A stretch of 64,000 bases of DNA from Roseibium marinum (GTDB taxonomy: Bacteria > Pseudomonadota > Alphaproteobacteria > Rhizobiales > Stappiaceae). Numbering within the stretch: position 1 is the stretch's first letter; each line of letters begins with the position of its first letter. Under the pieces are notes generated by a model. That model saw only the letters and a list, made by a program, of their open reading frames with translations, did not search any database and had not been told where the DNA came from. The translations under genes and the position numbers were made by a program. The stretch lies in assembly GCF_002906165.1 (NCBI RefSeq), contig NZ_PPCN01000004.1:310001-374000 (forward strand), given 5' to 3'. Positions 46,120 to 58,034 of this stretch are shown here, piece by piece.

Positions 46120-47934
46120 GTGCCACAGCGTAAAAAACTCTTCATCACGCCGACGCTGGCAACCGTCATCGGAAGTTTCGTGCTGATTACCGCCGCGGCG
46201 ATCCTGATCATTCAGGCAATCACCTCGCAACAGATCATCCGCCAGTTGGGTGGGGACCTTGTCGATCTCGGCATGGAGTCCGCGCAAACCGCCTTTGCCG
46301 AACAGCTTCACGCGGTCACGGAAACCGGCGAATACACAAAGCTCGCCTGGCAAAAGGGTGAACTTGCCTTCGATGATCCGGACCTGTTGGTCAGCTTTCT
46401 TTATGGCGCCCTCGCCCCGACGGAGCAGGTCTCCTTTCTGGTGCTGGTCGATGAAACCGGCAAAGGGGTGGATGTGGACCGCGGCGATGCCGACGGCACC
46501 CTTATCGGCGGCGACGTGGATATTGCGACCGACATCCCCATCCTCCTGGCGCTGACGGAACAGGCAGCCGGGAAACCCGAGCCTTTCTGGAGCGACGCCC
46601 TTTTCATGCCGGAACGCGATCACACGTATTTCGTCCATGTACAGCCGCTTTATGAAGGGGAGGATTATCGGGGCAGTCTGCTGGTCGGCATGTCTCTCGA
46701 CAGGATGTCCGAGATCGCCTGGTATATTTCGACCGATGATATCTCTGTCTTCCTGATGAAGGACGGCAGCCACGAAATCATTGCTCATGAGGATCTGCAT
46801 GAAAAATTCGATCACCTGAGCGCGGCAACACCCCTTCTCCATATCAGCCGGATACCGGACGACTTCCTGGCGACGTTCGAAGACATGAAGAAGCTCGACA
46901 ATACCGCCTTCGACATCGCGGAGGCGCTTGACCTTCACTACGGCTACGACGAGACAGGCGACAAGCGCTTCGTCGTCCTTGAACAGAAGAACGAAAACCT
47001 CGAGGGCCTGCCCGCGCGTATCGGCGTGCATTTTCCCGCCGCCTATCTTGACCAGCCGCTTCGGGAACTGATGGTTGCGATCGTCGTCGGCGCCGGCCTT
47101 CTTTTGCTGTCCCTGCTCGGTGCCGTGCTACTGGCCCAGCGCATCGCCCGGCCGATGCAACGGGCGTCGATGGCGGCCATGCAGGTTGCCAATCTCGATC
47201 TGGAGGCCGTTGAACCGCTTCCCGGCAGCGTCATCCGCGAACTGGACGACCTTTCCGGCGGTTTCAATTCGATGGTCGCCGGACTGAAGGCGTTCAGCCG
47301 CTATGTCCCCAGGACCCTCGTTCAAAAGCTCCTGCGCGAGGGCCGCGCCGACGCACCGCCGGAAGCGCGCGAAGTGGCGGTGCTGTTCACCGACATTGCC
47401 GGCTTCACGTCCGCGTCCGAAGGCATGTCGGCGACGCAGACCGCCGACTTCGTGAACCATCACCTGTCCCTGCTCGGCGCGGAGATCACCAGGGAGGGCG
47501 GCACGATCGACAAATATATCGGCGACAGCATCATGGCCTTCTGGGGCGCGCCGGAACGGCTCGACAACCCGGCCGCACCGGCCGCCCGCGCGGCCCTTGC
47601 CATGGCGAGGGCCATCCACGCGGACAACGAGGCCCGCATCGCCCGTGGCGAGGCCCCGGTCCGCATCCGCATCGGCCTCCACATCGGGCCTCTCGTCGTC
47701 GGCGACATCGGCGCCCCGGAGCGGGTCAACTACACGGTCATCGGCGACACGGTGAACGCCACCTCAAGACTGGAAAGCCTCGGCAAGGACATCGATCCGG
47801 ATGCGGAGGTGATCATCCTGGCTTCGAGAGAAGTCGCCGAAAGGCTGGACGGGGGAATCCGGCAGAAGCCTATCGGCGCGCACACGGTCAAGGGCCGCGT
47901 CGAGCCGATGGAGGTCGTCCGGCTGGGAGAATAG
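46120..47934 (+). CDS. Membrane-bound class III adenylate/guanylate cyclase with cache-like sensor and HAMP
   Basis: The protein has 604 residues. N-terminal helix VIGSFVLITAAAILIIQAI, a ~280-residue extracytoplasmic cache-like sensor, second helix MVAIVVGAGLLLLSLLGAVLL, HAMP, and a C-terminal cyclase domain follow in order. The catalytic domain has both metal Asp residues (VLFTDIAGFTS and YIGDSIMAFWGAP) and the transition-state Asn/Arg region (VNYTVIGDTVNATSRLE). It should make cAMP (or cGMP) in response to an external ligand. The GTG at 46120 has GGAAAGAG upstream; the frame also opens at a TTG at 46057. Confidence 0.92.
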   Translation: MPQRKKLFITPTLATVIGSFVLITAAAILIIQAITSQQIIRQLGGDLVDLGMESAQTAFAEQLHAVTETGEYTKLAWQKGELAFDDPDLLVSFLYGALAPTEQVSFLVLVDETGKGVDVDRGDADGTLIGGDVDIATDIPILLALTEQAAGKPEPFWSDALFMPERDHTYFVHVQPLYEGEDYRGSLLVGMSLDRMSEIAWYISTDDISVFLMKDGSHEIIAHEDLHEKFDHLSAATPLLHISRIPDDFLATFEDMKKLDNTAFDIAEALDLHYGYDETGDKRFVVLEQKNENLEGLPARIGVHFPAAYLDQPLRELMVAIVVGAGLLLLSLLGAVLLAQRIARPMQRASMAAMQVANLDLEAVEPLPGSVIRELDDLSGGFNSMVAGLKAFSRYVPRTLVQKLLREGRADAPPEAREVAVLFTDIAGFTSASEGMSATQTADFVNHHLSLLGAEITREGGTIDKYIGDSIMAFWGAPERLDNPAAPAARAALAMARAIHADNEARIARGEAPVRIRIGLHIGPLVVGDIGAPERVNYTVIGDTVNATSRLESLGKDIDPDAEVIILASREVAERLDGGIRQKPIGAHTVKGRVEPMEVVRLGE

Positions 47935-48001
47935 GTCCCCGGGCCAGGCATGGCCCTCGGTGCAAGCCGGTCGGATTGGCAAACAAGGTCCGGCGGTGGC
48001 C

Positions 48002-51000
48002 TCAGCTTGAACCGGACAGCACTTCGTGGACATTCTCCGAAATCGGCGCTGAACCTGTTACGGCGTTGGTTTCCAGGGTTTCGACTGCAATCTTGCTGGC
48101 CGCTTCGTGATAGCCGCGGCGCTTGAGAAAACTGAACAGGCTGCCGGAAGCCTGGGTGTGGAGGGCGCGGGCTCCGACCTTGTTCGAGGCCGCGAGCGAC
48201 TGCTCGTAGATATCAATGATTTCCTCGTCCGGTGACGGGCCGAACCGGTCCAGAATGATTGCCTTGATGCGCAGGAGTTCGGCGTCGAAATATTGCACGC
48301 CGGAGCGTGCCGAAAAGTCCAGTCCGATGGAAATTGCTTCCTGTGCCTGTGTCAGTTTCCCCTGATCCAGCAAGGCTTCGGCCAGCCAGGCTTGCGCGTA
48401 AGGCAGGGCGAGCCGGGCACCTGTGTCGACGTATTCGGCAAGCCCCTGCCTGAGCATTTCCAGCCCCTGCGCCTGACAGAGCCGGTCTTGAGCCCGGCCC
48501 AGATTAATCCGGGCCTGCGCGCGAAACTGGGCAAATCCCTGGCCGTCCGAGAGGACTTCGGCCACCTTCGCATGGTGCTCTGCCTGAGCGTGGTTGCCCA
48601 TGAAATTATGCATGCCGGAAATGAAATTGTGGGCAAATCCTGTGCTGGCATCGTGATTGCAGACTTCCGTTTCACTGATCAGCGAAGCAGCGGACCTGAC
48701 GGCCCTGTCAAAGTTGCCGGACAGGCTATGGATCCAGAGCAGATAAGCATTCGCGGTAACACGCAGGTTGACCCCGAACCGCAGGGCCATTTCCTCGTCG
48801 AACGGAGCCTCGTAGGCGGCCACGGCGGTAGTCAGGTCCTGTTCCGCCTGTGCGAACGCCCCCTTGTAGTAACTGGAGATGCCGCGCGCATAAAATCCGG
48901 CGATCTTGTTGAGAGGATCCCCTGTTTCCGGTGCCAGGCTTAGAAAATCTTCCGCCAGTTCGACGGCGGTATGGAGTTCTGCGCGAACGATGCAATTGCT
49001 CCAGAGTCCCCACAGGATCTCGCTGTTCTGAGACTTGTCCACGCAGATATTCGACAGGGATTTCGCCCGCCGGTAGACTGATTTGACTTCCGCGGAGGCA
49101 AATCCGTTTTCAGCCAGCAACTGAGGTCCAAGAAGCAGGAGAAACTGCTTGATCCTTTCATTGTATTTGCCCGACGCATTGTTTCTGTTGGCCAGGTCCA
49201 GAGCCCGGCGGAAGTGCTGAGCGGCTTCGTGATGTGCCGACACCCCCACCGCCTGCCGGCCCGCGATCTCCAGAAAATCGATTGCCTTGTCAGAAACTCC
49301 GGCCTTTTCCAAATGCCACGCGATAAGTTCCGGCTCGATGGAACTGGTCGCCATGATCTCGGTTTGAAGGGCTTCGGCGATGCGCCGGTGATAGCTCTTG
49401 CAGGTGCTGCGCAGGATCGAGATGTAGGTCAGCTCCTGAACCAAAGCATGTTTGAATTCGTAGCGGGCATATGGGATCTGTCCTATTCGAAACACCAGAT
49501 CCTGATCCTGCAGCTGTTGCAGATAGTCCTGAAGCTGCGTCTCCCCGCAGTCGGTGACCACCTTCAGCAAGGCGTAGTCGAACACCTTGCCGATCGCAGC
49601 TGCGATATGCAGAATTTCTTTTTCGTCACCCATCCGGTCAATGCGAGCCATCAGGGTTTCCTGCAAACTCGCCGGAACGATCGGGGATTTGGCAAATTGC
49701 GCCGTAGCTTCCAGCGGCAGACCGTTCATCAGTTCTTCGAGAAAAAGCGGAATGCCGTCCGATCGCCGGGCAACTTCCGCCGTATCGGCCTCAGTGAGAT
49801 AACTGGGCCGGATGTGTCGCGCCAGGGAGCTAATCTGCTGCTTGCTCAACCGGCTAAGCTCCAGTTGGCATACTGTTTCAGGCGGCGAATATTCGGGTTC
49901 CAAAACCGGCCGCGTGACTGAAACCAGCAGGATACGCGTGGCGGCAATGCTGATTTGCAGCGCATGCAGCAGATCCGATGAGCTGGAATCCATCCAGTGC
50001 ACATCCTCGAAAACCAGTATGACCGGCGCCTGTTCGGCCATCTGCAACAAACAGCCGAGGATAGTGCCAACAAGCCCCGCGGCGTCCGCCTCATGTTCCG
50101 GGGACCTGATATCCGGTTCCAGCAGCGTCCAAAGGTGATTCAGGTCGTGTTCCGAGCTGCGGCCAAGGTCCGCGAGCCAGGAGGACAGAACCTTTGCCTG
50201 CGTGTCTCTGTCATCCGATGGCTTGAATCCGATAACCCGCCTCAGTTCCTGGATGAGCGGATAAAAAGCCGTGTTCCTATGGTGTAGCGAACCGCTGAAA
50301 TTGAGGCGCGTCGCAACTTCCACCACCTTGTTGCGCAGGAAATGATGGACCAGCCTCGATTTGCCGATGCCCGGTTCGCCCACGATCGAAACGGCCTGCC
50401 CTCCGCCCTCAAGCACCTTGTGCCAAAGAGTGGCAAGCGTCTTCAGCTCTTCGTCCCGGCCGGTGAAGGAAGATAGAGTGTTCTGCCGTTCGCCGATGTC
50501 GAAACGGTTGGCCGCAACCCGTTCGCTGCCGATACGGTAGGCACCGGTCGCGTGTCCGGGGATGGGGACGAAACTGGTCTTGAAGGCGCGACGCATCAGG
50601 GCGAGCGTCGCTCCGCACACCAGGACACCGATGCCGGTAGCCGTGAAACTCAGCGTGGTGGCCTGTGTGATCAGCCCTCCGGACAGATGTCCGGGCGTCA
50701 AATTATCCGCCTGCCCGATCTGAACCAGAGCTTCTCCGCTGGCGATACCGCAGCAGATCTGCACCTCGTCTCCGGTCGTTGTGTCAACACCTTTGCCGTG
50801 CAGATCCGTTGCTGCGAAAACCGCTCTTTCAGCGTCGAGTTCACCCACCGCCGGATATCCGAAAATCGCCAGACACCGGTCTCCGGAGCGGCCCAGGAAC
50901 CGGCCTCCGAATTTCGGAACAGTGTCGCGGCACAAGGCTTCCATCGTTTCCATCAGCTCACTGCTGTCTTCGGCATCAAGCTGCTGACCGGTCGTGGTTT

Positions 51001-51829
51001 GGAAGGAAACACCGAACGCCGCGATTGTGACCAGACGCTTCTCAGGTTTGCCTCCCGCCACTGCATTGCTGCGTTCCAGCCGGTGAACGGCTGAGTCTCC
51101 TCCTTGCTGGCGAAGCCGGTTGAACACTTCGACAGTTTCCGCGGACGGGTCCGTATTGAGCTCCTGCCGCAGAATTTGTTCCAGCCGGTTGAACTGCATG
51201 ACGGCATCCGCGCGCCGCCCGAGGGCGTCCAGGCTTCTCATCGCCCTCCGGTGTGCGGCTTCGTGGGAGGGATCCAGAGCGATTATGGCCTGTGCGGTCT
51301 TTAGCGAAATATGCGGTTCACCGTGTTTCTCGTCGTACGTCAAAACGGTTTCGAGCGCGGAAATCGCGATATCACAGAGACGGTATCGCTCGCTCTGCAG
51401 CCAATCCGCGAAAGGGGCCGAGCGAATGTTTAATCCTTCCGCGAACTCCCCCTTGAAGATATGCGGAATGTGCCGAATGCGCTCGATGTCGCCCGAAAGG
51501 GCGATCCTCTCCAACTCCTGAGTGTCGACGGAGACGATATCGCTCCGCAGGGCCAGGTTATCCTGGTGGGTCTCGAATGGGTCCGGGCTTCCGCCTTCCT
51601 TCAGGATTTTACGCAGAGCGGCCAATTCCTGACGCAGGCTGGCGCGTGCCTGCTCTTCCCCGCTGCGCGGCCAAAGACAGGCAGCGACGCTCTCGCGCGT
51701 GCAATCTCCGCCGCGGCTTTGCGCCAGCCTGGCGAGAAGAGCCCAGGACTTTCGGGTTCCAAGCCGGAATTGGTGTCCTTCTTTACTGCTGAGAACACAG
51801 CCGTCCAGCAGAGTGAGTTGCAGTTCCAA
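48002..51829 (-). CDS. Large SARP-type transcriptional regulator (wHTH-BTAD-cyclase-like-AAA-TPR)
   Basis: The protein has 1275 residues. Residues ~1-95 form an OmpR-type winged helix (RKSWALLARLAQSRGGDCTR; ARASLRQELAALRKIL). Residues ~100-245 form a BTAD domain (ALDPSHEAAHRRAMRSLDAL, ILRQELNTDPSAET). Residues ~265-430 resemble a class III cyclase (GGRFLGRSGDRCLAIFGYP; GIASGEALVQIG) but lack the usual paired metal Asp residues, so they are probably inactive. Residues ~455-750 are an AAA/STAND ATPase (Walker A GEPGIGKS at 484-491; VFEDVHWMD). The remaining ~450 residues are TPR-like helices. The start is a TTG with GGAGG 8 nt upstream. It is divergent from the transglutaminase-hdc operon and probably binds the repeats at 51908, 56565 and 56921. 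Confidence 0.9.
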   Translation of the reverse strand: MELQLTLLDGCVLSSKEGHQFRLGTRKSWALLARLAQSRGGDCTRESVAACLWPRSGEEQARASLRQELAALRKILKEGGSPDPFETHQDNLALRSDIVSVDTQELERIALSGDIERIRHIPHIFKGEFAEGLNIRSAPFADWLQSERYRLCDIAISALETVLTYDEKHGEPHISLKTAQAIIALDPSHEAAHRRAMRSLDALGRRADAVMQFNRLEQILRQELNTDPSAETVEVFNRLRQQGGDSAVHRLERSNAVAGGKPEKRLVTIAAFGVSFQTTTGQQLDAEDSSELMETMEALCRDTVPKFGGRFLGRSGDRCLAIFGYPAVGELDAERAVFAATDLHGKGVDTTTGDEVQICCGIASGEALVQIGQADNLTPGHLSGGLITQATTLSFTATGIGVLVCGATLALMRRAFKTSFVPIPGHATGAYRIGSERVAANRFDIGERQNTLSSFTGRDEELKTLATLWHKVLEGGGQAVSIVGEPGIGKSRLVHHFLRNKVVEVATRLNFSGSLHHRNTAFYPLIQELRRVIGFKPSDDRDTQAKVLSSWLADLGRSSEHDLNHLWTLLEPDIRSPEHEADAAGLVGTILGCLLQMAEQAPVILVFEDVHWMDSSSSDLLHALQISIAATRILLVSVTRPVLEPEYSPPETVCQLELSRLSKQQISSLARHIRPSYLTEADTAEVARRSDGIPLFLEELMNGLPLEATAQFAKSPIVPASLQETLMARIDRMGDEKEILHIAAAIGKVFDYALLKVVTDCGETQLQDYLQQLQDQDLVFRIGQIPYARYEFKHALVQELTYISILRSTCKSYHRRIAEALQTEIMATSSIEPELIAWHLEKAGVSDKAIDFLEIAGRQAVGVSAHHEAAQHFRRALDLANRNNASGKYNERIKQFLLLLGPQLLAENGFASAEVKSVYRRAKSLSNICVDKSQNSEILWGLWSNCIVRAELHTAVELAEDFLSLAPETGDPLNKIAGFYARGISSYYKGAFAQAEQDLTTAVAAYEAPFDEEMALRFGVNLRVTANAYLLWIHSLSGNFDRAVRSAASLISETEVCNHDASTGFAHNFISGMHNFMGNHAQAEHHAKVAEVLSDGQGFAQFRAQARINLGRAQDRLCQAQGLEMLRQGLAEYVDTGARLALPYAQAWLAEALLDQGKLTQAQEAISIGLDFSARSGVQYFDAELLRIKAIILDRFGPSPDEEIIDIYEQSLAASNKVGARALHTQASGSLFSFLKRRGYHEAASKIAVETLETNAVTGSAPISENVHEVLSGSS

Positions 51830-51907
51830 ACGTGCCCCCTCCAGCTGGAGTGCGGAAAGACATCATAGAAAGTTGCATTATACATAATTACAATTACGGA
51901 ACTCATT

Positions 51908-51925
51908 ATTTGCGTATTTTTTACG
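51908..51925 (+). promoter_or_regulatory. SARP-type direct repeat upstream of the transglutaminase-hdc operon
   Basis: ATTTGCG-TATT-TTTTACG: two heptamers with a 4-bp spacer (11-bp period), 104 bp before the transglutaminase ATG and about 80 bp from the regulator's own start. The same element occurs at 56565-56582 (minus) and 56921-56938 (plus). Confidence 0.75.
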
Positions 51926-52029
51926 CCAGCAAACGGGTTGAGTGATTAATAATTGACAAGCGGAGACTGTACTGAGCAGACGGACAAATTGCCGGCTGCA
52001 TAGTTTTCAGACTTGGAAGGAACGGGTCA

Positions 52030-53319
52030 ATGGATCAGCTGGTAACGGAAAACACCGGTCTCTCGGTGGCGGGGCAAACGCTTTTCAATCACGACGAGAC
52101 TTTTCACGAAATCGAGAAGCACATTACGGTTCCCGAAGAACTGCAGGACACCCCGATCTTCAAAAGCGGATTGGTGCTCGAGATACGCAATTTGGAAAAC
52201 CCGATCGCCCGGCAAATTGTCGAGGCGATGAAGGCATCCTCCTCCGCTCACGCTTTCGCCTCGGTTCAAGACCTCAGGGACAACATCGCCTTTCGTCTCC
52301 ATGCCATCGATGCGATGACATTCTGCAATACCGGCAAGTATGACATGGATTACTTCAATCCCTCGATCGATCTGCAGCCGCGTATTGGCAGTACCGATGC
52401 GTCGCGGCTCAGCAGGTTCTGGGCTTTTTTGCATCCCCATGCGCAGGACAACGCGGAATTCAGCCAGGTTCGGGGCACACTCGCCTCGGAAGCCATTGCG
52501 CCGATGGCCAACGCGACCTTTCCCTTCCGCGGAGAATGCGCCGGCGCGTTCCAGATGGCCGTCTATTTCGGCTTGCTGACGGGCCTGGGGCAGAAAAGAT
52601 TTGACGCGATGGCGTCCGATTTCGGCACCATGTATATCGGTCCCTGGAGCCTGGTCAGAGGCACGCCAAATCCAGCGACCCTGTTCATGAAATCCGCTTC
52701 GCTGAAGGACCCGCCCATCCCCGGCGACTACATGTATTTCAAAAACAAGGATGACTATCTCACATGGGCGCCGGACGGATTCTGGACCGGCCTCAATGCG
52801 ATGTATATGGGCAAGGACGAGATGGGAACCCGTCACTATTCCGGTATGGGTGCCTCCTGGCTTAGCGAGACAAACCTGAGGGCATCCCTGATTAACGCCT
52901 ATTATCACGACTGCTTCCCGCATACGATTTCCAACCCTGTGAAGGAAGTGCGTTTCACGGAGCGAAATTTGTTGACCATCCCGGCCCAACTGCAGGCGGC
53001 ATCCGTCCCCTCCACACCGGCGCGCGATGTTCAGCGCGGTCCCGCCTTCGACACGACCCGCCTGCGCAAGGCAGGATTTGCCATGGATGATGCCGGTATC
53101 TGGGTGCACCCGGGCACGACACTCGGGCAAATGTGCAAGGATCTGGAAATTTCACCGGACGACCTTCATCAGGTGGCAAGCGCCGGCATAAAAAATCCGC
53201 CCCATCGGTACACGCGCGACGGCATATCGGTCATAATTCACTATGCGGATCCGGCAACGGACCGCAGGGATACCGATGCGCCGGTCACCGCTCATGTCAA
53301 CCCCAAGCAGGGTTCGTGA
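52030..53319 (+). CDS. Tgl-type protein-glutamine gamma-glutamyltransferase (transglutaminase)
   Basis: The protein has 429 residues, with no signal peptide. Its middle matches Bacillus Tgl, the minimal NlpC-like transglutaminase that cross-links spore-coat proteins: an N-terminal helical block (DLRDNIAFRLHAIDAMTFC), the nucleophile motif FRGECAGAFQMAVYF (Glu169-Cys170) and PGDYMYFKNKD (231-241). WTGLNAMYMG (252-261) aligns with Tgl WRGENVIxLG. The catalytic Glu of that last motif is Leu255 here and the following His position is Ser271. The E-C pair before the nucleophile is kept. About 130 C-terminal residues are extra and unrecognised. GGAAGGAA precedes ATG 52030. It is translationally linked to hdc (3-nt gap). 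Confidence 0.8.
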   Translation: MDQLVTENTGLSVAGQTLFNHDETFHEIEKHITVPEELQDTPIFKSGLVLEIRNLENPIARQIVEAMKASSSAHAFASVQDLRDNIAFRLHAIDAMTFCNTGKYDMDYFNPSIDLQPRIGSTDASRLSRFWAFLHPHAQDNAEFSQVRGTLASEAIAPMANATFPFRGECAGAFQMAVYFGLLTGLGQKRFDAMASDFGTMYIGPWSLVRGTPNPATLFMKSASLKDPPIPGDYMYFKNKDDYLTWAPDGFWTGLNAMYMGKDEMGTRHYSGMGASWLSETNLRASLINAYYHDCFPHTISNPVKEVRFTERNLLTIPAQLQAASVPSTPARDVQRGPAFDTTRLRKAGFAMDDAGIWVHPGTTLGQMCKDLEISPDDLHQVASAGIKNPPHRYTRDGISVIIHYADPATDRRDTDAPVTAHVNPKQGS

Positions 53320-53322
53320 ACC

Positions 53323-54222
53323 ATGAGCATCTACCCGGAACGGACATCCCATGACCTTCATCTGAAACACGTGGTCAACAACGCGGTGGGTCCGTTCCCG
53401 GCCAATTGCGCGGGTTACATGAACCCGCCGGCGGCGGGATGGGGTTACATCGCCGCCCTGAAACTGTCCATCGGCACGGTCGCGGCGGACATGGACACGG
53501 GCCTTGACGGCATCGTGTCCTATGACCGGGCGGAGTGCGAGGACGCCTATATCGGCCAGATCAACATGCTCACCGCGTCCTCGTTTTGCGGCGTCAATGG
53601 CGCGGTCTGGGGATATGATCTGGCCCGGCACGACGACCTGGCCGCCGGTCTGGTCAAACCGCTGATGATGCTGCCCCGTCACGATGGCGTGGAAATTCCC
53701 GTCATGCCGATGGCTCCCCTGCTGGACGCGGCTTACCGGTTGTTCGGCTCGCGCAACCAGCGGCGGTTCCCGCCATTGCCGGGATCCATGGTGGTGTGCG
53801 CCAACAAATCCCGGACCATAAACCCGGAGCGGGAAACAACGGTCTGGTGCGCCCTTGCGATCGCCATCGCTCAGGACCGGCTCACGACCGCCAATCTTTT
53901 CATCGAAGACAGCTCGGACACGGAAACCACGGGCGAGGCTCCGCTTGTCGATATCGATCGCAACATCGCACGATCGATCCTGCTGTGCGGTGCAGATCAG
54001 GGCGTTGCCTACCAGCAGATTTTCATCGGCCACAAGGCCTTGAAAATCAAGAAAGGGACGGTCGGCTGTGCTTTGGCCTGCGTGCCGTATGTCACCCTGC
54101 CACACGACGCCATTCCCCGGAATATGCATCCGGAAGTGCTGGTGGACCTCACTCTCAGTCAATGGGAACAGGCCCTGGATCTCGATCCCATGGCGCCCTA
54201 CCCCGGAAACTATCGCGGCTGA
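53323..54222 (+). CDS. hdcA: Pyruvoyl-dependent histidine decarboxylase proenzyme
   Basis: The 299-residue proenzyme converts histidine to histamine and CO2. It matches the Lactobacillus/Clostridium enzyme over its length: GIVSYDRAECEDAYIGQINM, TASSFCGVNGAVWGYDL, and later SMVVCANK, NLFIED and PYVTLPHDAIP. The self-cleavage pair Ser86-Ser87 in TASSF would give a pyruvoyl group on the alpha chain. The substrate pocket Tyr67-Asp68 and an acid residue Glu195 in the F-I-E-D motif are conserved. No PLP motif is present. It starts 3 nt after the transglutaminase stop. No histidine/histamine antiporter is seen in the window. The enzyme class is well known in Gram-positive bacteria and unusual here. 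Confidence 0.92.
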   Translation: MSIYPERTSHDLHLKHVVNNAVGPFPANCAGYMNPPAAGWGYIAALKLSIGTVAADMDTGLDGIVSYDRAECEDAYIGQINMLTASSFCGVNGAVWGYDLARHDDLAAGLVKPLMMLPRHDGVEIPVMPMAPLLDAAYRLFGSRNQRRFPPLPGSMVVCANKSRTINPERETTVWCALAIAIAQDRLTTANLFIEDSSDTETTGEAPLVDIDRNIARSILLCGADQGVAYQQIFIGHKALKIKKGTVGCALACVPYVTLPHDAIPRNMHPEVLVDLTLSQWEQALDLDPMAPYPGNYRG

Positions 54223-54452
54223 GTCATATCGCGCCCTACCGTCGAACCCCGGCCCGTCGCCCCCTGAACGCGACAGGAACCGATCATGAAATACTGCATG
54301 TGAGTCCCATCCACGTGAGCCCCATCGTTGACCGTTACACGCCGAACGGGATTTCAGGACGCTCATCCCGCCCTTTAAAAAGAAGTGGAATGCCCCGGTC
54401 AGGCTGTTTGCCAGGGAGCTTGGAAGTGGAAAAGAGCAACGGTCTCAAAGTG

Positions 54453-54492
54453 CCGCAGCCTCCCGCTCTCAGATGAACGCGGGAGGCTGCGG
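54453..54492. terminator. Bidirectional-type stem-loop between hdcA and the exported Cys protein
   Basis: A perfect 14-bp stem (CCGCAGCCTCCCGC / GCGGGAGGCTGCGG) with a 12-nt loop sits between the convergent hdcA and the gene at 54500. No strong T tract follows on either strand. The 230 bp between hdcA and this stem hold no other recognisable feature. Confidence 0.65.
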
Positions 54493-54499
54493 GAGATTT

Positions 54500-54946
54500 C
54501 TACCGCCAGATCGCGCCCTTGAACTGGCCCGTGGCGTCCTTCGGCGTGATACCGGAAAGATCGCAATGGTTGGCGTTGCCGGGAACGGCCGCCTGGATCA
54601 GCCGCGCGCTTTTGACCGGAGCGTTGATGGCACAATAGGCGTCAAAACGTGCGGGCAGACCCGCCAGCGTGTTTGCGAGATTGCCCCCGGGCCGGCAATT
54701 GACGCTTGCCCCGGTCATGCGGCCGCTCTGGTTGACTTCTTCGCCGCTGAAGTCGCATTGCTTCCCGGTCGACGTACCTGCCACGCCCCGGGGGCCTCCC
54801 AAGGTTACGCCGCGAATGACCACGCCAGAGGTCACCGGTTTCGTCCCGGCCTGGGCGGTGTCGTCCTGAGCGGCGGCAGGCAGGGCGACGGCGCAAGCCA
54901 TGCCGAGAGCCAGCAGGCAGGCGAGCGATATTGATCTGGAAGTCAT
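54500..54946 (-). CDS. Small exported cysteine-containing protein of unknown function
   Basis: The protein has 148 residues. A signal peptide (LACLLALGMACAVALPAAAQ) leads into a mature part with four cysteines (KQCDFSG, VNCRPGG, AYCAIN, NHCDLSG), probably two disulphides; CDFSG and CDLSG look like an internal repeat. No named family is recognised. AGGAGA lies 7 nt before ATG 54946. It is the third gene of a minus-strand series with the tail-collar and RhiA-like genes (gap about 94 bp). Confidence 0.7.
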   Translation of the reverse strand: MTSRSISLACLLALGMACAVALPAAAQDDTAQAGTKPVTSGVVIRGVTLGGPRGVAGTSTGKQCDFSGEEVNQSGRMTGASVNCRPGGNLANTLAGLPARFDAYCAINAPVKSARLIQAAVPGNANHCDLSGITPKDATGQFKGAIWR

Positions 54947-55040
54947 TGATATTCTCCTGTTCTTTAAAGTCGATCGGATGGATTTGCGGGCAAGCCTCGC
55001 TGACGGGAGGAAAAAGGGATCGAGCGGTCCCGGTCACCTG

Positions 55041-55628
55041 TCAGCGAAACTTGATGATGTAGTTGACGGCGACATTCTTCGGCCGTGTCTCGGGGGCGGT
55101 CCTTGCCGGAGAATCCGGTGAACCTGTCGGTTTGCTCGAAATAGACGTTCCCGCCGCACTGCCCTGCTGCGAGATGGCTGCCGGCTGGGTGATGTCATAC
55201 GAGTGCGTGTGATCCTGCAGAGCATCGCACTGGAGAGAGCCGACGACATTCGCCACGTTGTTCCCGGTCGGGTCGAGACGATGTCCCGCGTCCGGGTCCA
55301 TACCGGCTCCGGCATCGGCACCGCGCAGGAACAGGCCGCGGTAGTCCGGAAGGCGGAACTCCAGGTCCGCCCCGGAATTCTGCTTCCCGTAAAGCTCACC
55401 CAGGACAGCGTGGAGTTCCGGATAAGCGGCCGCATTAAGGTAACGACCGTCGCAAAGCATCCAGCCTTGCGATTCCACGTGACTTAGCGGCGAGTCGGCC
55501 AGCGTTCCTTGCGCCGCCCCCGTGCTGGCGCAGGGCGCGTTCGCCCAGGTCGTATTTGGAGACCCCGAGACCGGGTCGACCTGTCCTGCAAAAGGGCACA
55601 CGGTGCCAACGGGCGGTCCAGAAAACAT
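55041..55628 (-). CDS. Phage tail collar domain protein (microcystin-dependent-protein-like)
   Basis: The protein has 195 residues. A tail-collar domain (SQGWMLCDGRYLNAAAYPEL, then FRLPDYRGLFLRGADAG) is followed by a C-terminal tip typical of these proteins (TRPKNVAVNYIIKF). Such proteins occur in phage tail fibres and, outside prophages, as secreted or cell-surface proteins of unknown role. No other phage gene is near, so a prophage is unlikely. It lies between the RhiA-like and small exported Cys genes on the same strand. Confidence 0.88.
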   Translation of the reverse strand: MFSGPPVGTVCPFAGQVDPVSGSPNTTWANAPCASTGAAQGTLADSPLSHVESQGWMLCDGRYLNAAAYPELHAVLGELYGKQNSGADLEFRLPDYRGLFLRGADAGAGMDPDAGHRLDPTGNNVANVVGSLQCDALQDHTHSYDITQPAAISQQGSAAGTSISSKPTGSPDSPARTAPETRPKNVAVNYIIKFR

Positions 55629-55784
55629 GGTTCATCCCCTTTCAATGTTACGTGTTGAGGAAGGGACCGGAGGCATTGTCTCAGACGCGTATGCGCTGCC
55701 GGGAGGTGCAGCCATCGGCAAGGCGCGCTCCGATCCCACCGGCGCCGCGCGGTTGGCGCGGAGCCGGATCTGGGCGATGGCCGA

Positions 55785-56474
55785 TCAGGCCGGTGAAATG
55801 TCCCAGGTATTGTCAGCCTGGAGTACACAATTGAGATCGTAGACCGCGGGCGGGAACTTGGCTTCGGCGGTCTGGGCGATCGTATCGATATTCAGAACCG
55901 TGCCGATTTTCACGTTCGTTCCCGCGGCGAGCCAGTAGCTCGGGGTCGGCGTGAAAGTGTGCGTCAGATTGGTCCCGGCCTGAACACAGTAGGTACCGGT
56001 TCCCGACATGCCGATGCCGACGGAATACCGGTTGTTCGGAACGTCTGCGGCATCCTTGATGACCAGAGATCCGGTCGGAGGACCCTTGACCGGCGTGCTG
56101 AGTCCGGGCCCCGGTGTCAGCGAAAACTCGGTCGTGTTGTTTCCAGCGGGACTGCAGTCCACTTCGCCCGAAGCGTAGAAATCGACGCCCGGCATCAACT
56201 GGCCCGTATCGCTCCAGACGAAATTGTAGTCGATTTCCCAGGTGAACCTGATCCTGTTGCCGACCCGGATCTCATAAGGCGAACAGAACCAGGCCATCGA
56301 GAACACATCTGCAACCTGCTGCGGCATCTTCTGATAGACGTAAAAGGTCCAGGGCTGAGCGGCTTCGTTGATGAGCGTCATGGAATATTTGGTTCCCTGG
56401 GCTGCCACCGCTTCCTGAGATGCGAGCAGTTCATGGCTCAACGATTGCCTTGCATAACTGATTTCAAGTGTCAT
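55785..56474 (-). CDS. RhiA-like beta-sandwich protein (tentative)
   Basis: The protein has 229 residues with no signal peptide or membrane helix. Characteristic blocks are TLINEAAQPWTFYVYQKMP, FSMAWFCSPYEIRVGN, FTWEIDYNFVWSDTGQLMPG and YSVGIGMSGTGTYCVQA, ending VYDLNCVLQADNTWDIS. I recall this pattern from proteins annotated as RhiA (rhizosphere-induced) in rhizobia and from related uncharacterised proteins in Pseudomonas, Burkholderia and actinobacteria; the name is from memory. GAGGAAA precedes ATG 56474. A SARP-type direct repeat lies 90 bp upstream, facing it. Confidence 0.7.
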   Translation of the reverse strand: MTLEISYARQSLSHELLASQEAVAAQGTKYSMTLINEAAQPWTFYVYQKMPQQVADVFSMAWFCSPYEIRVGNRIRFTWEIDYNFVWSDTGQLMPGVDFYASGEVDCSPAGNNTTEFSLTPGPGLSTPVKGPPTGSLVIKDAADVPNNRYSVGIGMSGTGTYCVQAGTNLTHTFTPTPSYWLAAGTNVKIGTVLNIDTIAQTAEAKFPPAVYDLNCVLQADNTWDISPA

Positions 56475-56564
56475 TTGACTTTCCTCTCGTGAAGGTTCGA
56501 TCCCTCGGCCATCGGTGTGGCCTGTGGACCGCTTCAACGTAGTCGGGACCTTCAGATTTCAGTC

Positions 56565-56582
56565 AGTCAAAAATACGTAAAT
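56565..56582 (-). promoter_or_regulatory. SARP-type direct repeat upstream of the RhiA-like gene
   Basis: On the minus strand: ATTTACG-TATT-TTTGACT, the same heptamer/4-bp/heptamer layout as at 51908 and 56921. It ends 90 bp before ATG 56474 and points towards it. Confidence 0.75.
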
Positions 56583-56735
56583 TATTGATTTCATGCGATA
56601 ATTTTTTATCCAGATTTTTTACGGCCATCATTTATCCGTAAAATCCAGACATGTGACAGCAACCCGAAAAGCTGCGCGGGTTGTCGTCAGGTCCCGGGTT
56701 TCATTTCAAGAAGCAATCGGAGGATAAACAAAGCG

Positions 56736-56771
56736 GCGCCTTGCACGCGCCCGGGTACGCGTGCAAGGCGC
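56736..56771. terminator. Strong isolated stem-loop
   Basis: GCGCCTTGCACGCG pairs perfectly with CGCGTGCAAGGCGC (14 bp, 8-nt loop CCCGGGTA). It lies in the middle of a divergent region, not after any visible gene. It may be a boundary terminator, an sRNA 3' end, or the remnant of a lost gene. Confidence 0.5.
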
Positions 56772-56920
56772 GCTCCGGAACTATCTCCAATAAAGTATGC
56801 CATAGAATTACTGCATACATTATTTAAGAAGTATAATTTATGCATGACACGAGAGATGATTTAATAGTCTAGACGAATTGAATATTAGCAATGAAATACC
56901 ATCATCGGAGGATTGCTATT

Positions 56921-56938
56921 TTTTACGTATTTTTTACT
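56921..56938 (+). promoter_or_regulatory. SARP-type direct repeat upstream of the AidA-like pair
   Basis: TTTTACG-TATT-TTTTACT, the cleanest copy: the two heptamers differ only in the last base. It ends 106 bp before ATG 57045. Confidence 0.8.
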
Positions 56939-57044
56939 GACAGAAAACATTCGGCTCGCATACCCTGATGCCGCTGGAAGCCAGAGCCGAGAGCATCAAG
57001 ACCTGCAACCGTCGTTGCATAGAGCCAAATGGAAAGGAAGTCTT

Positions 57045-57455
57045 ATGGCCGTCATTCAACCGGGCATTTGCTCCTGCTTCATCCAGATCTGGGTGAATTC
57101 GAATGCACTTCTCAACAGCAAGGCCACGGGCATCTATCTCGTAGACAACACGCTTCACGACGGAGGATCGAACGAAGGCTCCGCAAATCTCCTTACCGTC
57201 GTAAACACAGGCACATATATCTGCTGGTCGCTGCTGAATATCGACCCGGTTTCCGGGATGCAACTGCGGATCCGGAGTTTCGGCGATGCCGGTATCTTCG
57301 GCGCCGGTGGAGCCCCGCAAATGGTCAATGCGACAACATGGACCGGACAGGCGCAGGCCGAGGGGACAGATCGTTACGCAATCAATTTCAGTGCGTTCAA
57401 CTCCTGCTCTACACCCATTTTGACCAGAGTTACCCCGAGCCTGAAAGCCGGCTGA
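57045..57455 (+). CDS. AidA/PixA (inclusion-body protein)-like, shorter member
   Basis: The protein has 136 residues with no signal peptide. Strand pattern and the late block TWTGQAQAEGTDRYAINFSAF resemble the AidA/PixA family (Pfam inclusion-body protein), in which W-x-x-Q/G-x-V-x-x-x-G-T-E/Q-x-Y-x-x-x-F is conserved. Family members include quorum-regulated AidA of Ralstonia/Burkholderia and PixA of Xenorhabdus inclusions. It lacks the usual C-terminal YFxWDP segment, so it is shorter. AAAGGAAG precedes ATG 57045. It lies 106 bp after a SARP-type site and is followed after about 36 bp by a longer paralogue. Confidence 0.68.
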   Translation: MAVIQPGICSCFIQIWVNSNALLNSKATGIYLVDNTLHDGGSNEGSANLLTVVNTGTYICWSLLNIDPVSGMQLRIRSFGDAGIFGAGGAPQMVNATTWTGQAQAEGTDRYAINFSAFNSCSTPILTRVTPSLKAG

Positions 57456-57491
57456 TCGGACGACATGTCCAATGCCCCCAAGGAACCCACA

Positions 57492-57986
57492 ATGACCACT
57501 CCCGAAATCGTGGCCGAAGTCTCACTTGTTCCATCGACAAAAATTCAACCGCAAACCAGCATCACTATTGCGGTGGACACTGCCTATGTCGCCGGGCAGC
57601 AGAGCGGTAATATCGTCCAGGGTATTTACATGATGGACAATCGTGTTGCCAACGGCACAACCGGCGAAGGGACACTTGAACTCAGCACCGTTTGCAACAT
57701 CGGAGACCTTGTCGGTTTCAACGCGGTCCCCATTAACGCACTGGGCTCTTCTGAAGACGAAGTGGAGATCACGGCAATCAATGTCTCTTACGGCAGCGTT
57801 TTCAGCGCTGCCGGCATGCCGCGCCCGCAACCGGCTCTTCCCGGAGAACCCGCCGGGGCCTACTGGATCGGCCAGGCATTCAACAAGGGAACGCAGACCT
57901 ATCAGATCCAGATCAAGGTGACCGTCGGCAAGCTCCAGCCGATTTCGTATTTCGTAAGCTGGAACCCGTTCATAACCTGCAAGTGA
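57492..57986 (+). CDS. AidA/PixA (inclusion-body protein)-like, longer member
   Basis: The protein has 164 residues with no signal peptide. N-terminal ITIAVDTAYVAG, middle CNIGDLVGFNAVPINALGS and C-terminal GAYWIGQAFNKGTQTYQIQI, then YFVSWNPFI, match AidA/PixA proteins (typically …YFQWDPxI). ATG 57492 has AAGGA 7 nt upstream; an in-frame ATG at 57465 (9 codons earlier) has a weaker site. It is a paralogue of the gene at 57045 and probably co-transcribed. The family forms inclusions or is produced under quorum control in other bacteria; the molecular role is unknown. Confidence 0.75.
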   Translation: MTTPEIVAEVSLVPSTKIQPQTSITIAVDTAYVAGQQSGNIVQGIYMMDNRVANGTTGEGTLELSTVCNIGDLVGFNAVPINALGSSEDEVEITAINVSYGSVFSAAGMPRPQPALPGEPAGAYWIGQAFNKGTQTYQIQIKVTVGKLQPISYFVSWNPFITCK

Positions 57987-58034
57987 TATTTCCCGGATGA
58001 CCTGTCCGTCTCGGCGCAGCGCCACCTGTTGTTT

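Follow-up and report, generated by a model that had tools for sequence, protein, structure and literature searches.

The window examined in the present study, a 64,000-nucleotide (nt) stretch of the Roseibium marinum genome (RefSeq assembly GCF_002906165.1, contig NZ_PPCN01000004.1, positions 310,001 to 374,000), contains two adjoining genes on the + strand that encode a Tgl-type transglutaminase homologue (TGL; 52030..53319, 429 amino acids (aa)) and a pyruvoyl-dependent histidine decarboxylase (HDC; 53323..54222, 299 aa), separated by a gap of 3 nt. The two proteins are very probably functionally coupled, as their genes lie side by side at 9 loci and co-occur in genomes where they are unlinked. 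Judging from the sequences, we give about even chances to the reading, the most likely of those compared, that TGL histaminylates protein glutamine with histamine made by HDC. An earlier note, made from the sequence alone, had named both families, their tight spacing and a common function of the two enzymes, all of which were supported by the comparisons described below.

Assignment of TGL to the Tgl family is based on a match over the gathering cut-off of PF20085 (E 1e-15, 58.2 bits, cut-off 23.7, residues 57-275), and on a profile of ten TGL relatives that matched solved Tgl structures (7c9j at 8e-9 and 4p8i at 1e-4), with approximately 90 aa at the C-terminus having no Pfam match. The predicted catalytic pair Glu169-Cys170 (52534..52539, + strand) aligned with Glu115-Cys116 of Bacillus subtilis Tgl and was kept in all 19 rows of the TGL alignment, which represent 18 distinct loci owing to one duplicated row (L002 is L008). 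Asn256 corresponds in the alignment to Asn188 of B. subtilis Tgl and was likewise conserved at 18 of the 18 distinct loci, and His200 of the B. subtilis enzyme falls beyond the aligned region. According to excerpts of a published mutational study (PMC6490927), B. subtilis Tgl variants C116A, E115A and H200A had no detectable activity, N188A had residual activity and E187A approximately 60%. No relative of TGL was confirmed in viral contigs or matched in phages, and a viral origin was rejected on these grounds. A defence system was also rejected, since PADLOC (rows with E up to 0.1) gave nothing for TGL or HDC and, for the protein of the divergent neighbouring gene, a single weak hit to SngB (E 0.03).

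HDC exceeded the gathering cut-off of PF02329 (E 1.4e-76, 257.9 bits, cut-off 25), and the Lactobacillus HDC chains of PDB 1hq6 aligned with it at 6e-30 and 3e-14. Its score against the NCBIfam equivalog TIGR00541 was 243.9 bits, under the cut-off of 346.65, so that HDC is a divergent member of its family. The predicted self-cleavage site Ser86-Ser87 (TASSF motif; 53578..53583, + strand), proposed as autocatalytic in the earlier note, coincides with the chain junction of 1hq6 and was identical in 17 of 17 HDCs. The same holds for Tyr67, Asp68, Glu71, Phe193 and Glu195, which together with the serine pair we take to be active-site residues, and for Ile64, Asn81, Phe88 and Lys162; relatives from Methylocystis and Rhizobium plasmids, which differ at some positions, were left out of this comparison. 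The Rhizobium plasmid proteins (L005 9956-10948, L043 and L044) had no TGL match, and the active site of the one aligned, from L005, is altered (SGDRC for SYDRA, ATSY for ASSF), so that it is possibly another pyruvoyl decarboxylase; close to its gene are two others annotated as encoding inclusion body family proteins (L005 7173-8399). The Methylocystis plasmid HDC (L004 11899-12882), with no TGL match in its stretch, has by eye a signal-like N-terminal extension that would make it non-cytoplasmic. A second HDC fragment, 67% identical, was seen at a contig end (L046 11359-11586) in genome G742, from which one of the linked loci below (L006) derives.

Loci with adjoining TGL and HDC genes and a divergent gene for an AAA protein were designated class I, and those with TGL and AAA genes lacking a neighbouring HDC class II. 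At least nine class I loci were recovered, from the window (genome G000), Roseibium G356 (L024), a Salipiger plasmid, L006, Yoonia vestfoldensis (L007), G148 (L008), L009, Palleronia abyssalis (L012, genome G740) and G1047 (L045). In all nine, spanning at least six lineages, TGL and HDC were side by side on one strand, with no more than 75 nt between them wherever the start of HDC was clear (that of L006 was not). The possibility raised by the earlier note, that the two genes are never adjacent in relatives, was looked at and failed on these nine loci. L006 is from an uncultured Rhodobacteraceae metagenome-assembled genome (MAG), has its AAA gene in two frames and ends just after HDC; G148 is an alphaproteobacterial MAG. 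L009 comes from a MAG labelled Anaerolineae, which is probably misbinned because the locus and L008 share 89% DNA identity over 13.8 kb. Outside the genus, identity to the window proteins was 69-79% for HDC, 44-56% for TGL and, by segment, 27-42% for the AAA protein. The ratios of nonsynonymous to synonymous substitution rates (dN/dS) between G000 and G356 were 0.17, 0.05 and 0.09 for TGL, HDC and AAA, respectively, indicating that all three are maintained. In Palleronia, two proteins of 405 and 817 aa with no Pfam match follow HDC (L012 12315-16053); the same pair occurs in Sinorhizobium americanum (L119), where an AAA-like protein (24% identity) is encoded nearby and neither TGL nor HDC lies in the fetched stretch, and was taken as passengers.

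Association of the two genes extends to genomes in which they are not neighbours. TGL was present in 9 of the 87 genomes of the window's family, all nine belonging to Roseibium and all nine also carrying HDC, which was detected in 11 (the nine TGL genomes, G339, and as a fragment in G324). Thus among 45 Roseibium genomes, nine had TGL, each with HDC, and one had an intact HDC without TGL (G339). Seven of the nine are class II (G318, which is R. aggregatum L010; G331, G332, G334, G342, G350; and G357, which is L011), with HDC elsewhere in the genome and scoring 424-439 bits against PF02329, compared to 411 for G339 and 257.9 for the window. The class II TGL gene had transporter and isocitrate-dehydrogenase-like neighbours in seven of seven genomes, and the class II HDC gene had regulator and oxidoreductase neighbours in the same seven as well as in G339 and G324 (all names by eye); both places are old. 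In G324, a case of joint loss, the HDC place is occupied by an HDC remnant with stop codons; the TGL place retains a remnant of the AAA tail beside the conserved transporter and shows no match to TGL. Background frequencies were low, with HDC in 2 of 289 genomes of a class sample (the window genome and G148) and TGL in 1 of 398 genomes of a phylum sample (the window genome). In the family to which Palleronia G740 belongs, TGL occurred in 2 of 394 genomes and HDC in those two, of which one (G1047) is independent given that G740 itself determined the choice of family.

Dependent evolution of TGL and HDC was favoured over independent evolution on an rpoB tree of 43 of the 45 Roseibium genomes (likelihood ratio (LR) 25.85, p 3.4e-5; Fisher 1.8e-8), G354 and G345 being omitted for their partial rpoB (both are without TGL and HDC). 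The result held after removal of G000 and G356, in which physical linkage by itself would produce the correlation (LR 19.20, p 7.2e-4; Fisher 3.6e-7). Among 334 simulations of independent evolution on the 41-taxon tree, restricted to data sets with each trait present in three tips or more, none reached an LR of 19.19 and the maximum was 12.24. HDC of G334 forms a whole 291-aa frame; its treatment as a broken gene was rejected, as the in-frame stop lies outside the gene, and counting it as broken gave an LR of 14.95 (p 0.0048).

Divergent from the pair, across an intergenic region at 51830..52029 defined by the layout of open reading frames, lies a gene for a 1275-aa regulator-like protein (48002..51829, - strand) with a SARP/BTAD N-terminus, an AAA_16 ATPase and a TPR-like C-terminus. 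BTAD and AAA_16 were over the Pfam cut-off and TPR was below it, and the NCBIfam TOMM kinase/cyclase model TIGR03903 matched residues 258-1231 at 371.4 bits, under its cut-off of 705.75. AAA relatives, either complete or truncated at the end of a contig, accompany TGL at 18 of the 18 distinct loci, comprising nine linked loci, the seven unlinked Roseibium loci and, as partial genes, the MAG loci L013 and L014. The class II AAA gene is upstream of TGL on the same strand, and its product aligns with the window protein only from residue 252 or 267; that of G318, the one tested against Pfam, has no BTAD. Matches to the class II protein above 590 bits were found in exactly the nine TGL genomes of the 45 Roseibium, and the best match in a genome lacking TGL was 248 bits. 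Because of its divergent placement and its constant company with the pair, the SARP/AAA protein may control or assist TGL and HDC. G334 also encodes a second protein (G334:C12; L057 5111-7345), in which a different N-terminus precedes ~380 final residues that share 52% identity with the C-terminal region of the class II AAA protein.

In the proposed histaminylation mechanism, HDC would self-cleave at Ser86-Ser87 to form its pyruvoyl cofactor and make histamine from histidine, as its conserved active site suggests. Cys170 of TGL would form a thioester with the side chain of a glutamine in the target protein, which would then be resolved by histamine, acting as the small primary amine, to give a gamma-glutamyl-histamine protein. 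B. subtilis Tgl, in the excerpts of PMC6490927, is made in active form, accepts a small primary amine and incorporates amines without further known requirements. Histamine as the amine used by TGL would explain why genomes that carry the transglutaminase retain an amine source, including those in which the two genes are unlinked. More tentatively, and with less confidence than in the reaction itself, we suggest from sequence comparison that the system could be the first genetically dedicated bacterial monoaminylation pathway, an accessory module that would make and write histamine under a SARP/AAA regulator, act on lineage-specific substrates and have synthesis and transfer inherited or lost jointly. 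The target may be specific to each lineage, as a repeat protein described below could be, or encoded elsewhere in the genome.

A candidate target is present in two class I clusters. In Yoonia (L116) and G1047 (L115), HDC is followed by a LamG-repeat giant protein, 73% identical between both. Next come a small protein that contains Cys, a HINT-like protein, another of similar type that has no Pfam match, an Asn synthase and a glycosyltransferase (the last called by Pfam in G1047 and by eye in Yoonia). The group has the appearance of a so far uncharacterised cluster for biosynthesis or for a surface protein. The HINT-like protein, with a PT-HINT match under the cut-off (E 0.006) and an HExxH motif seen by eye, ends in GARDRQRRKK-type units, four in Yoonia and seven in G1047, with one Gln per unit. 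These make up all 7 Gln of the 194-residue tail in G1047 and 4 of the 7 tail Gln in Yoonia, and 10,000 shuffled tails contained at most two (Yoonia) and one (G1047) DRQR. A Streptomyces canus homologue, one read out of six plasmid hits, is without the repeat tail, and the tail had no match in plasmids using BLAST with the low-complexity filter on. The repeat protein is our best candidate for a TGL substrate in these two genomes.

Several observations weigh against histaminylation by this pair. TGL scored 40.5 bits against the NCBIfam Tgl equivalog PRK03187, far below the cut-off of 307, so that it is a divergent member of its family, a relative of Tgl and not Tgl itself. The second acid of B. 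subtilis Tgl, Glu187, is replaced by Leu255 in TGL, with Leu at 17 of the 18 distinct loci (18 of the 19 rows) and Glu retained in L014 only. Together with the low equivalog score this substitution means that TGL could have another chemistry, although the approximately 60% activity kept by the E187A variant indicates that Leu255 is compatible with activity and need not abolish it. AlphaFold models of TGL were too poor for a fold search, with a mean predicted local distance difference test (pLDDT) score of 59.0 using 10 sequences and 44.2 using 7, so that a Tgl fold in the catalytic core and a pocket for histamine are putative. G339 has an intact HDC with no TGL and no AAA match, and the MAG loci L013 and L014 have the TGL family with no HDC found in their genomes, the completeness of these MAGs not being stated. 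No substrate gene is conserved beside the pair, and the five neighbours in the window match G356 only among the class I loci fetched. The evolutionary test relied on a single-gene tree with midpoint rooting and several weakly supported deep branches.

The main rival to histaminylation, which we regard as unlikely, is that the two enzymes share one regulon and do separate jobs, TGL cross-linking proteins through Gln and Lys and histamine being a separate secreted or signalling product, with the SARP/AAA protein switching both on. It draws on the chemistry of B. subtilis Tgl, which is cross-linking in the excerpts of PMC6490927, on the repeat units beside two of the pairs, which carry Lys as well as Gln, and on the tighter association of TGL with the AAA relative (all 18 loci) than with HDC (16 of 18 genomes). 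However, it does not easily explain the joint presence and loss of unlinked TGL and HDC, and in class II genomes HDC is far from the AAA gene.

A less probable alternative is that TGL joins histamine to free glutamine, glutamate or a peptide, giving gamma-glutamyl-histamine or a histamine-amide natural product. The SARP/BTAD match and the sub-threshold TOMM kinase/cyclase similarity are suggestive of such a product, as are Asn_synthase in the Yoonia and G1047 clusters and the glycosyltransferase in G1047 (the one tested), but biosynthesis-type genes are at only 2 of the 9 class I loci (L006 ends at HDC). Known members of the Tgl family, moreover, act on protein glutamine.

Two further explanations are both highly improbable. 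Pyruvoyl HDC serves acid resistance in lactic acid bacteria and HDC stands alone in G339, but ordinary acid resistance or histidine catabolism with TGL as a passenger is hard to reconcile with a TGL that is under purifying selection and tracks HDC. The earlier note had argued against acid resistance from the absence of an antiporter, and this stood in part: no match to hdcC or hdcB was found among fetched loci over 5 kb, the Limosilactobacillus reuteri record itself excepted, and a search of 8 genomes for homologues of the L. reuteri histidine-histamine antiporter, run with no positive control, gave none. A TGL that is a deamidase, hydrolase or inactive relative, regulating HDC or its product in some other way, would fit the lost second acid, the sub-threshold equivalog score and the added C-terminal stretch, but not the invariance of Glu169-Cys170-Asn256 at 18 loci, and Glu187 itself is largely dispensable in B. 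subtilis Tgl according to the excerpted data (PMC6490927).

The window genes lie in an accessory island of ~10.1 kb (47896..58029; ends approximate, the left end possibly nearer 47832) that comprises the regulator-like gene, TGL, HDC, rhiCBA and two PixA-like genes. The whole island is missing from G337, the sister of G356 on the rpoB tree, with ~180-240 bp in its place. Beyond HDC on the - strand are homologues of RhiC (54500..54946; 67% to RhiC of R. johnstonii pRL10), of RhiB, a tail-collar protein identified by its position between rhiA and rhiC (55041..55628; PF07484 at 1e-14, 78% to the pRL10 gene), and of RhiA (55785..56537; start codon uncertain, 71% and 78% to rhizobial RhiA). They are followed on the + strand by genes for two inclusion-body proteins, the first MakCD-like (56913..57455; start codon uncertain, NF049870 at 5e-14 and 52.4 bits, below the cut-off of 110) and the second PixA/MakCD-like (57465..57986; NF049870 at 2.5e-15 and PF12306 at 0.0037, both below cut-off). 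The earlier note had put these five neighbours (54500-57986) forward as proteins that TGL might modify, and as general substrates they were rejected, having no match at the other fetched class I loci apart from G356; rhizobia, moreover, carry rhiABC in stretches that, as far as read, have neither TGL nor HDC. rhiCBA and the two PixA-like genes thus share the island, not the module, and are its passengers. The rhiCBA genes are rhizosphere-expressed genes of Rhizobium leguminosarum plasmids, here found in Roseibium, and RhiA of R. leguminosarum is described in the excerpted source (PMC2275737) as a cytoplasmic protein of high abundance and unknown function.

Each component resembles a known system and departs from it. 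TGL has the catalytic Glu-Cys, the following Asn and, by profile, the core of Bacillus spore-coat Tgl (PF20085; 4p8i, 7c9j), but differs in its 429-aa length (PDB chains 254-260), extra C-terminal stretch, replacement of Glu187 by Leu, score below the equivalog cut-off, Gram-negative hosts and pairing with HDC. HDC shares active-site residues and the Ser-Ser cleavage pair with HdcA of Lactobacillus and Limosilactobacillus (1pya/1hq6), and is 38% identical to the L. reuteri protein. The hdc order on L. reuteri pLRI01 is hdcC-hdcA-hdcB-hisS, whereas the partners of HDC are TGL and the SARP/AAA protein, rather than the antiporter hdcC and the maturation gene hdcB, and HDC is also below the TIGR00541 cut-off. 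The SARP/AAA protein has in common with TOMM kinase/cyclase fusions (TIGR03903) and SARP regulators a long model match (258-1231) and a BTAD N-terminus, but it is below the TOMM cut-off and has no kinase domain among its Pfam matches.

Protein monoaminylation, including serotonylation and histaminylation, has been described in animals, and mammalian transglutaminase 2 belongs to a different transglutaminase family from TGL. The mammalian enzyme (TGM2) histaminylates proteins, in excerpts of the published account (PMC3743044), and the reaction proposed here, histamine onto protein glutamine, is the same, the differences being that the present system is bacterial and that the enzyme making its histamine is linked genetically to the transglutaminase. 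Among the matches listed in literature searches for parts of the combination, we found no description of a bacterial TGL-HDC pair. If the histaminylation reading is true, an amine-making enzyme travelling with its transferase in bacteria would suggest that monoaminylation evolved independently, and the pair would provide a simple genetic system for testing what histaminylation does, as well as a second role for pyruvoyl histidine decarboxylase besides acid resistance.

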